Shown here in pieces: positions 38,198-41,004 of a DNA stretch of 64,000 nt. The notes below the pieces were generated by a model. It had not been told where the DNA came from. It worked only from the letters and a program-made list of their open reading frames with translations, and ran no database searches. The stretch covers positions 4,402,001-4,466,000 of the forward strand of contig NZ_CP044532.1 in NCBI RefSeq assembly GCF_026427775.1. Reading direction: 5' to 3'. How positions within the stretch are numbered: the stretch's first letter is position 1; every line of letters starts with the position of its first letter. The DNA comes from Arthrobacter sp. CDRTa11. Its GTDB lineage: Bacteria; Actinomycetota; Actinomycetes; Actinomycetales; Micrococcaceae. The position numbers were made by a program, and so were the translations under genes.

Positions 38198-38270
38198 TGA
38201 GGGTAAAACAACGGGCTCCATTGTTACCGCCCGATTTTGGCAACACCGAAGCCTCGTCCTAGTCTTTCTG

Positions 38271-38289
38271 TTAGCTAAGCCTTACCTAA
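38271..38289. promoter_or_regulatory. DtxR/IdeR-type iron box
   Basis: TTAGCTAAGCCTTACCTAA matches the 19-bp consensus TTAGGTTAGGCTAACCTAA at 15 positions. It lies 54 bases upstream of the acylase ATG and overlaps the region where a promoter would be. It predicts repression by iron. Confidence 0.7.
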
Positions 38290-38342
38290 CAAAGCCTTGG
38301 GAGAGAACGTGCCTGCTTCACCAAACCGCCCTCAGGTTGCCG

Positions 38343-40430
38343 ATGTCCTCTGAGACGTTCCGGGACCAGTGGGGAGTCCCGCACCTGCGGGCAGACAGCG
38401 TGGACGAACTCGCGTTCCTGCAGGGCTTGAATGCGGCCATGGACCGTTCCTGGCAGATAGAGGTGGAGCGGTGGCGCTCGGAAGGCAGGACGGCCGAGCA
38501 CCTGGGGGCGGACGGGCTCCACTGGGACCGCTTTGCCCGCCGCGTGCGGCTTGACGATACAGCCCGCCGTTGCTTCGAAAACCTGGACGCTGGCACCAAG
38601 CGCTGGTGCAGCGCGTACGTGGACGGCGTAAACCACGCCCTGGAATCCGGGCGCAGGCAGGCTCCCGAATTCAGGACTGCGGAAACAGCAGCTGCCGCTT
38701 GGCAGCCCTGGACGCCGCTGGGCGTCTTCCTGGTCCATCACATCCTGTTCGGCACCTTCCCCAACAAACTGTGGCGCGCCCATGTGGCCGAGACCCTCGG
38801 GGCCGACGCCGTGGAGCTGTTCAGCATTGAGGCCCCGGTGTGGGCCGGAAGCAACGCCTGGGCAGCCGCCAGCCACTTGACGGCGTCCGGTTCCCCGCTT
38901 ATTGCCGGAGATCCGCACCGCCTGATGGAACTGCCGGGCGTGTACCAGCAGGTGCGCCTGGCGTGCCCGGACTTCGACGTCGTCGGGCTGGCCTTTCCGG
39001 GTGTCCCCGGCGTGCCCCACTTCGGCCACGCCGGGACAGTCGCGTGGGCCGTGACCAACGCGATGGCTGACTACCAGGACCTGTACAGCGAGCAGTTTAG
39101 GTACGACGGCGGCGTACTCCAGGCGCTCGGGCCCGCCGGCTGGCGGCCGGTCCCCGTCCACCACCAGGAAGTCATCAAGGTCCGCGGTGCCGATCCCGAG
39201 ACCATCGACGTCATCGAAACTGACCACGGTCCGGTCATCTCCGGCGGTATCGACGGCGGCGCCGTCAGTCTGCGGACGCCCGCCCGGGCCGGGGGGACGC
39301 TGGGTTTTGAGGCCCTCCTGCCGCTGCTGCAGAGCCGTTCCGCCAAGGACGTGGAAGCTGTACTGGAAACCTGGGTGGAGCCGGTCAACTGTGTGCTCGT
39401 GGCGGATTCCGGCGGCGAAGTGCGCCAGTTTGTAGCGGGGAAGGTCCCGATCCGCAGTGCTCAAAACCGTATTCTTCCTGCGCCGGCCTGGTCCCAGGAG
39501 CATCAGTGGGTGGAAGGCTGGGAGGAACTTCCGCGGTCTTCGGTGCCAACTTTGGCGGTGAATGCCAATGACCGGGAGTCCGGCGGCGGGGACCGGCTGG
39601 GCCTGGAATTCGCCCCGGCACACCGTGCCCGCCGGATCCGGCACCTGTTGGAGGAAGGCGGGCCCGCGCTGGACGCCTCAGCGATGCAGAAAATCCACAT
39701 GGATACCCGGCTCGGTTCGTGGCCTGCGCTCCACGCCCTGCTCCAGGCGCTGACTGGGCTGTCCGCCGAGGCCGCGGCGCTCCGCGAACGGCTGCTGGAC
39801 TGGGACGGGCATATGGATGGGGACAGCGAAGATGCCGGCGCCTTCGCCGCCTGGCGGTCGGTCCTGGTTCTCGCCCTGGCAGGCACCTCGAGGCTGAGTC
39901 CGCTGGCGGCTCCCAACGTCTACTCTCCCCTGTTCGGACCCTGGCTGCATCTGGAGTCGCGGATCGGTTTCGCCTTGGAAACCCTGATCGCGAAGGGCAG
40001 CCACCACGGCATCGACGTCGTCGGAGCAGCCGCCCACGCCCTGGAACAAGTGGCGGCAGGAACCGGGGGCACCACCACGTGGGGAACAACGCACACCGTC
40101 CTGCCGCTCCATGCCCTCGCCGAACACAGGGCCACCGCATCAGCAGCCACAACAGTCCCCGTGACGGGACTGTCCGGTGACACCGGCTGCGTCCTTTCCA
40201 CGGAAAGCCTGCCGGGCGTCACCGACGGCTCATTCCGGGGGCCGGTGGCCCGCTATGTCTGGGATCTGGCCGACCGCGGCAACAGCCGGTGGATCGTACC
40301 GTTCGGCAGTTCCGGAGTTCCCGGCCACCCTCATTTCGCCAGCCAGCTCCCGCTGTGGGCCGCTGGGGACCTCGTCCCTGTCCTCACCGACTGGGAACAG
40401 CTCACCAAGGAGACAAATGACCAGCGTTGA
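38343..40430 (+). CDS. Penicillin-acylase-type Ntn hydrolase, probably iron-regulated
   Basis: A 695-residue precursor of the penicillin/cephalosporin acylase and acylhomoserine-lactone/PvdQ family. Typical opening DQWGVPHLRADSVDELAFLQG is followed by the alpha chain, and self-cleavage should occur before Ser170 in AGSNAWAA, which then becomes the N-terminal nucleophile of the beta chain. Later, GTVAWAVTNAMADYQDLYSE fits the beta-chain core. No signal peptide is visible, unlike PvdQ. ATG 38343 has CTCAGG upstream; TTG 38337 is an alternative. It overlaps the acetyltransferase gene by 14 bases, and both follow a DtxR box, suggesting a siderophore-related role. Confidence 0.85.
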   Translation: MSSETFRDQWGVPHLRADSVDELAFLQGLNAAMDRSWQIEVERWRSEGRTAEHLGADGLHWDRFARRVRLDDTARRCFENLDAGTKRWCSAYVDGVNHALESGRRQAPEFRTAETAAAAWQPWTPLGVFLVHHILFGTFPNKLWRAHVAETLGADAVELFSIEAPVWAGSNAWAAASHLTASGSPLIAGDPHRLMELPGVYQQVRLACPDFDVVGLAFPGVPGVPHFGHAGTVAWAVTNAMADYQDLYSEQFRYDGGVLQALGPAGWRPVPVHHQEVIKVRGADPETIDVIETDHGPVISGGIDGGAVSLRTPARAGGTLGFEALLPLLQSRSAKDVEAVLETWVEPVNCVLVADSGGEVRQFVAGKVPIRSAQNRILPAPAWSQEHQWVEGWEELPRSSVPTLAVNANDRESGGGDRLGLEFAPAHRARRIRHLLEEGGPALDASAMQKIHMDTRLGSWPALHALLQALTGLSAEAAALRERLLDWDGHMDGDSEDAGAFAAWRSVLVLALAGTSRLSPLAAPNVYSPLFGPWLHLESRIGFALETLIAKGSHHGIDVVGAAAHALEQVAAGTGGTTTWGTTHTVLPLHALAEHRATASAATTVPVTGLSGDTGCVLSTESLPGVTDGSFRGPVARYVWDLADRGNSRWIVPFGSSGVPGHPHFASQLPLWAAGDLVPVLTDWEQLTKETNDQR

Positions 40431-41004
40431 AACTGCCCTTCCGCTCTCTTCCAGGCCTTCCGTTTACCAAGAGACATTGCCGGTCCTCGGCACCCTTCGG
40501 CTTCTCCCGCTCATCCCTGAAGCTGACTCCGATCTGCTCCATGGCTGGGTGAAGGAGGAACGCGCCAGGTTCTGGGGCATGCAAAACATGAGCCGGGATG
40601 AAGTCAGGGACATCTACTCGTTCGTGGACAGCCTGGATACGCATCATGCCTACCTGATCTCGGTTGAGAACAAGCCGGCGGGGCTCTTCCAGACTTATGA
40701 ACCGCTTCAGGATCCGGTGGGCGAGGTGTACCAGGCCCTTCCAGGGGACACCGGCCTGCACCTGCTGCTGGCTCCTGCCACGCAACCGGTCCACAACTTC
40801 ACGCCCATCCTTATTTCAGGGCTGATCCGGTATTTGCTCTCCGATCCCGCCAAGGACCGTGTGGTGGCCGAACCTGACGCCCGGAACGCCAAAGTGATCC
40901 AGCGGCTGCAGGCATGCGGCTTCGAGCTGGGTGCCAAGGTGCAGCTCGCGGAGAAGGAAGCACAGCTTGTTTTCCTGACAAGGGAACGATTCGAAAGGGT
41001 GTAG
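40417..41004 (+). CDS. Siderophore-type GNAT acetyltransferase (Acetyltransf_8, IucB-like)
   Basis: A 195-residue acyl-CoA transferase. ATG 40417 has AAGGAG at 40407-40412 and lies within the end of the acylase gene (14-base overlap). The sequence RLLPLIPEADSDLLHGWVKEERARFWGM, the VENKPAGLFQTYEP strand and the C-terminal RVVAEPDARNAKVIQRLQACGFE match the family that acylates N-hydroxylated lysine, ornithine or diamines in hydroxamate siderophore synthesis. No synthetase or N-hydroxylase gene is in the window, so its partner pathway must lie elsewhere. Confidence 0.85.
   Translation: MTSVETALPLSSRPSVYQETLPVLGTLRLLPLIPEADSDLLHGWVKEERARFWGMQNMSRDEVRDIYSFVDSLDTHHAYLISVENKPAGLFQTYEPLQDPVGEVYQALPGDTGLHLLLAPATQPVHNFTPILISGLIRYLLSDPAKDRVVAEPDARNAKVIQRLQACGFELGAKVQLAEKEAQLVFLTRERFERV

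Follow-up and report, generated by a model that had tools for sequence, protein, structure and literature searches.

A probable desGH module for desferrioxamine biosynthesis in Arthrobacter, with a candidate leader ORF upstream of desG

The closest described system is desJGH of Streptomyces coelicolor (SCO4048-4050), for which control by DmdR1 has been predicted; this and the other statements of the present paragraph follow the portion available to us of the report in PLoS Biol 2025 (PMC12161575). Inactivation of desG in that species lowered desferrioxamine B (DFOB) about 1000-fold and raised desferrioxamine E (DFOE), and inactivation of desH lowered DFOB 16-fold, again with a rise in DFOE. 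Based on these knock-outs and on metabolomics, the authors proposed that DesG removes the succinyl group from N-hydroxy-N-succinylcadaverine and that DesH acetylates what is left, favoring DFOB. The loss of DFOB in the mutants is demonstrated, whereas the de-succinylation chemistry has been put forward in print as a proposal. The same report recognizes desGH by a simple rule, namely that genes with the domains PF01804 and PF13523 lie within 1 kb of each other.

The gene pair and its Streptomyces counterpart

The window, the whole 64,000-nucleotide stretch of DNA analyzed here, comes from the 5.16-Mb genome of a soil actinobacterium, assembled as a single contig, and contains a pair of genes that falls under this rule. 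The upstream gene, desG (38343-40430, + strand), has an ATG start and encodes a 695-residue amidohydrolase of the S45 penicillin-acylase family; an in-frame TTG at 38337 is a less likely alternative start. The downstream gene, desH (40417-41004, + strand), encodes a GNAT acyltransferase of 195 residues. In profile searches, the desG product matched Penicil_amidase (PF01804) across residues 6-688 with 502 bits, and the desH product, a DesC-type protein, matched Acetyltransf_8 (PF13523) with 159 bits. The two ORFs overlap by 14 bases (40417-40430), just as a sequence-only reading of this DNA had described for an acylase gene and a siderophore-type acetyltransferase gene. That reading also linked such penicillin-amidase plus acetyltransferase pairs with desferrioxamine-type clusters, and desGH genes of this kind are described in S. 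coelicolor (PMC12161575, available portion). When the whole genome was searched, DesG was the sole Penicil_amidase match, and three Acetyltransf_8 proteins exceeded the cut-off: DesC, DesH and one further protein.

The window pair resembles S. coelicolor desGH in having a penicillin-amidase gene followed by one for a DesC-like acyltransferase, in its iron box, and in lying apart from a desABCD operon that is present in the same genome. Unlike S. coelicolor desJGH, it has no desJ directly beside it; instead, a gene for a PF02133 (NCS1-type) permease lies upstream on the opposite strand and a histidine kinase gene lies downstream. It further differs in the lineage-specific leader ORF that precedes desG. 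The Streptomyces sequences in our comparison are desG genes of species other than S. coelicolor (49-53% identity), with SCO4049 and SCO4050 outside the compared loci. A scan for promoters and terminators of the locus returned no promoter and a single terminator-like site, below the count in shuffled sequence.

Several lines of evidence bear on the assignment: the PF01804/PF13523 rule, the presence of desABCD in the genome, the co-occurrence of DesG with DesD, the upstream iron box recognized by sequence, the DesH lineage of the acyltransferase, and the nearest relatives in the PDB. From these we estimate a probability of roughly 0.9 that the window locus is desGH, an accessory desferrioxamine module, including an acyl swap that takes place intracellularly and under iron control. 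By its domains and setting, the pair is a clear Arthrobacter-group member of the known desGH system, and an ordinary one apart from the leader ORF.

Link to desABCD and the iron box

A complete desABCD operon is present elsewhere in the host genome (locus L037, 3369-8783), with predicted products comprising a decarboxylase, a lysine/ornithine monooxygenase, an acyltransferase and an IucA/IucC synthetase. In contig coordinates, desD (543 kb) and desG (4,440 kb) are 3.9 Mb apart. The earlier description of the pair as away from any synthetase therefore holds for its immediate vicinity and fails for the genome, and, with desABCD in the same genome, the pair can no longer be seen as isolated from every siderophore pathway.

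Within the genus, DesG was found in 57 of 206 genomes, some with DesG in pieces, which carries the 2025 desGH model, built on published desferrioxamine producers such as Streptomyces, over to Arthrobacter-type bacteria. Sixty-two genomes gave a match, from which five weak ones at 29-37% identity were dropped (G114, G116, G138, G169 and G209); in seven of the 57 the match is only in pieces (G013, G024, G052, G057, G123, G151 and G193). All but one of the 57 (56/57) also have DesD, as compared with 70 of the 149 genomes without DesG (Fisher p 6e-14, uncorrected for kinship). The DesD count of 126 was reached from 129 matches after three at 30-31% identity were dropped (G035, G193 and G194), and includes a partial match in G154. 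By these counts, dependence of desG on desD is near-strict in the genus, and the 70 genomes with DesD but without DesG imply that the module is dispensable. The distribution of desG would predict which strains make capped (DFOB-type) desferrioxamines and which make only uncapped (DFOE-type) ones. The sole DesG genome without DesD is G193, in which DesG is fragmented (G193:C44) and no close DesD was found, and in G013 DesG is likewise present only in fragments (G013:C11) with DesD kept. Natural loss of the module is possible in both, with assembly faults as an alternative.

In the 25 genomes of the genus that have both genes on one contig, the plain difference in coordinates between desG and desD is never below 465 kb. 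Three genomes of the same order (G067, G085 and G096) have desG directly after desD, the desG match beginning about 40 bases or less after the end of the desD match. Such a placement of the pair beside des genes in relatives is what the sequence-only reading had suggested looking for. In these three desD-adjacent loci no box was found before desG.

A DtxR/IdeR/DmdR1-type iron box is predicted at 38271-38289 (annotated without a strand) from a consensus match, an inverted repeat and conservation in relatives. The site is the window's only match to the 19-mer TTAGGTTAGGCTAACCTAA at up to 3 mismatches, with 0.00 expected from shuffles; 15 of 19 positions match on the + strand, the figure reported earlier from sequence inspection, and the - strand gives 16. 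The box lies within an inverted repeat (38269-38291) with 11-nt arms that are 91% complementary. Across the whole genome TTAGGTTAGGCTAACCTAA at up to 3 mismatches gave three sites versus one for its backwards control, so that this 19-mer alone is not specific genome-wide at that threshold. A second 19-mer, TTAGGTAAGGCTTACCTAA, matches the box with 1 mismatch (reversed control, 0), and at up to 3 mismatches finds three distinct sites in the whole genome, with none for its reversed control: before desG, between Peripla_BP_2 and FecCD genes, and before an SBP_bac_5 gene. Because TTAGGTAAGGCTTACCTAA was composed after the desG box and a site before desA had been viewed, its matches are partly circular, and conservation upstream of desG in relatives is the better evidence for the box. 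There, a box lies within 250 nt upstream of desG in 59 of 79 loci, versus 6 of 790 stretches drawn at random from these loci, counting matches with up to 3 mismatches on either strand to either 19-mer (the general one or TTAGGTAAGGCTTACCTAA); the denominator is 79 rather than 80, as one locus comes with no upstream DNA. The other 20 of 79 have no good box, and by eye the box appears halved in several close relatives (L010-L012, L022, L117, L120 and L121). In the 16 kb around desABCD no match to the IdeR consensus was found at up to 3 mismatches, and before desA only the core TAAGGCTTACCT was spotted by eye. The box-like site between the divergent Peripla_BP_2 gene and FecCD permease gene (L041, about 1501-1519; G000:C1:4062226) likely marks a siderophore uptake locus.

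The set of relatives comprises 80 loci kept of 478 found, from strains partly common with the 206-genome set. DesH adjoins desG downstream in 65 of the 80, and DesD lies within the fetched flanks in 10; in the genome search set, a DesH match follows desG in all 22 loci checked. The 15 loci without an adjacent DesH are mixed, some having DesD nearby, some a box and some neither. Taken with the 20 loci without a good box, they indicate that not every close DesG homologue belongs to a desGH module, and some of these homologues probably do something else. Seven close homologues (L122, L163, L167, L180, L184, L187 and L191) have flanks with no DesH, DesD or good box, and are perhaps a branch with another substrate.

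Predicted chemistry of DesG and DesH

By sequence, the closest solved relative of DesG is PDB 35sz, named 'penicillin acylase family protein' (E 6.8e-119 over the beta chain). The next best PDB matches are glutaryl-7-ACA acylase (4hsr/4hst) and D-succinylase (7eby/7ea4), ahead of the penicillin G acylases. Glutaryl acylase and D-succinylase, by name, remove dicarboxylic acyl groups, which fits de-succinylation by DesG and provides a testable basis for that proposed step. What these relatives say about the substrate carries modest weight, since further glutaryl acylases (1fm2, 1ghd and their relatives), at E near 1e-8, rank no better against DesG than penicillin G acylases do. D-succinylase and the cephalosporin acylases have been placed in one family, S45 (PMC11241749, available portion). 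Like DesG, 4hsr and 7eby are S45 Ntn-hydrolases with an aligned N-terminal serine, and both by name act on dicarboxylic monoamides; unlike them, DesG would have no signal peptide, lies in an operon with an iron box, and is predicted to act on another substrate.

The predicted N-terminal nucleophile of DesG is Ser170 (codon 38850-38852, + strand), which by alignment would be the first residue of the beta chain, matching the serine at which the beta chains of 35sz and 4hsr start. A serine at the autoprocessing site is what S45 Ntn-hydrolases would have, and G169-S170-N171 is unchanged in 16 of 16 aligned DesG proteins. By analogy with the family, DesG would mature by autoproteolysis at Gly169/Ser170. 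His226 is also unchanged in 16 of 16, and aligns with a histidine in 4hsr and a serine in 4hst, a position that we take to tune the acyl side chain.

DesH and the host's own DesC, both PF13523 proteins, are 38% identical, and the best PDB match of DesH is DfoC, a desferrioxamine enzyme. An acetyltransferase tree of 80 rows, from which segments shorter than 110 residues were left out, placed the window DesH with all 65 desG-linked acetyltransferases, split from the DesC side by a 100/100 branch; the host DesC and a third paralogue grouped with the desABCD-linked acetyltransferases. The exceptions are L145 and L165, labelled non-adjacent, which fell on the DesH side, and the tree carries a long-branch warning, above all for the DesH of L192. 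While DesH shares PF13523 with DesC and the acyltransferase domain of DfoC, in this phylogeny it is a separate, well-supported lineage, apart from DesC. The third Acetyltransf_8 protein of the genome (L004, G000:C1:2143150-2143584, - strand) sits on a long branch with DesC. Aminoglycoside acetyltransferase was rejected as an identity for DesH, the relevant NCBIfam models scoring at most 34 bits versus cut-offs of at least 260.

Under iron limitation, a DtxR-family repressor would leave the box and desG and desH would be co-transcribed. DesG would then hydrolyze the succinyl group off N-hydroxy-N-succinylcadaverine supplied by DesABC, and DesH, with acetyl-CoA, would convert the freed N-hydroxycadaverine to N-hydroxy-N-acetylcadaverine. 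DesD could take this compound as an end cap, giving linear desferrioxamine B and not only cyclic desferrioxamine E. In the lineage of the window, translation of desG is probably coupled to the short leader ORF. The acyl swap suggested from sequence alone is essentially the published desGH model, with one correction, namely that DesG most likely acts on the desferrioxamine precursor N-hydroxy-N-succinylcadaverine and not on a siderophore that is already complete or being recycled.

Three other roles for the pair were weighed against this one. According to the available portion of PMC12161575, the original hypothesis for desG was an aryl or fatty acyl transferase or hydrolase that diversifies desferrioxamines, giving phenylacetyl-capped forms, for example. 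Membership of the penicillin acylase superfamily, with penicillin G acylases among the PDB matches of DesG, would suit such an activity. However, among PDB relatives with a named activity a glutaryl acylase and a D-succinylase match best, and in S. coelicolor, knock-out of desG nearly abolished acetyl-capped DFOB and arylated forms are not known (PMC12161575, available portion), making this older hypothesis unlikely. Still less probable is a pair that recycles or detoxifies imported hydroxamates, with DesG cleaving them after iron release and DesH re-capping the products. An iron box, an acylase with no room for a signal peptide, and a locus unlinked from desABCD in the genus (at least 465 kb in the 25 one-contig genomes) would all accord with it, but a role on foreign siderophores predicts DesG in genomes without desABCD, and this was seen in one of 57, where DesG is fragmented.

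The least credible of the three, which we regard as hardly worth entertaining, is that DesG works like PvdQ or an AHL acylase, with a lipidated siderophore precursor or quorum signals as substrates. DesG and PvdQ share the PF01804 family, and the sequence-only reading had spoken of a PvdQ/penicillin-acylase family; the penicillin acylase half of that label stands at 502 bits, but PvdQ is too specific, the NCBIfam PvdQ model scoring 21.3 bits versus an equivalog cut-off of 950. PvdQ is periplasmic. The PF01804 domain of DesG begins at residue 6 and, judged from this position, leaves no room for a signal peptide, so the periplasmic location of PvdQ is not seen in DesG, and the absence of a signal peptide noted earlier is upheld. 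DesG is also tied to a synthetase-type (IucA/IucC) pathway. By sequence comparison, its kinship with PvdQ is at the superfamily level only, and glutaryl acylase and D-succinylase are closer.

A candidate leader ORF upstream of desG

Downstream of the iron box lies a short ORF (38309-38353, + strand) of 14 codons, which begins with GTG, ends with TGA at 38351-38353 and is read in a frame other than that of desG. A GGGAGA motif lies upstream of its GTG at 38309, and its TGA overlaps the desG start (ATG 38343) by 11 nt. The survey for this leader covered 36 same-genus loci, 18 whose DesG is at least 68% identical (the window included) and 18 less similar. A GTG leader of 11-17 codons, led by a Shine-Dalgarno sequence and in the other frame, is present in 14 of the 18 loci at 68% or more, and no such leader was found in any of the 18 less similar loci. 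The overlap between the leader stop and the closest in-frame start codon of desG is 8 bases in L009 and 11 in the other leader loci. Four loci of the more similar group have no leader. The GTG of L078 shares the reading frame of desG; in L010-L012 desG seems to begin directly at GTG, and L010 and L012 have a four-codon ATG frame in place of the leader. The leader clade was drawn after the leader was seen, and L010-L012 were at first put with the other group post hoc. Sequencing error as the cause of an out-of-frame leader is ruled out, as 14 loci share it.

The leader stop is formed by an NCT codon of desG followed by GAG or GAA. All 15 loci compared (the 14 leader loci and L078) have T at the wobble position of this codon, though the residue varies among Ser, Pro, Thr and Ala; these loci are related, and the rows are thus not independent. 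NCT makes up 9% of the NCN codons in the compared genes (296/3184), and among 103 columns in which all 15 rows have NCN, the leader-stop column alone is all T, the next best reaching 9 of 15. Over all NCT columns of the window, the leader-stop column included, T is kept in 54 of 221 cells of other loci. Conservation of the wobble T within TGA despite a varying residue suggests selection on TGA and translational coupling between the leader and desG. The nearest desG start has no Shine-Dalgarno sequence in 11 of 14 leader loci, by a simple pattern test that is weak in that it also misses most starts of the other group.

We lean, by a small margin over even odds, towards desG in the lineage of the window not depending on a ribosome-binding site of its own and being translated via the leader ORF by termination-reinitiation, a layer added between the iron box and the enzymes that perhaps serves in sensing. 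Programmed +1 frameshifting at the leader TGA is a less likely form of coupling, since an ATG or GTG lies 1-2 codons before NCT in 14 of 14 leader loci, which frameshifting would not need. No report of a desG leader ORF was found in our literature searches on desG/desGH and on leaders or in the available portion of PMC12161575. As a regulatory prediction, the conserved leader is small and specific, and it is the one detail that looks new in a system already known. The leader peptides have little in common beyond an initial Val-Pro, which is shared by 12 of the 14.
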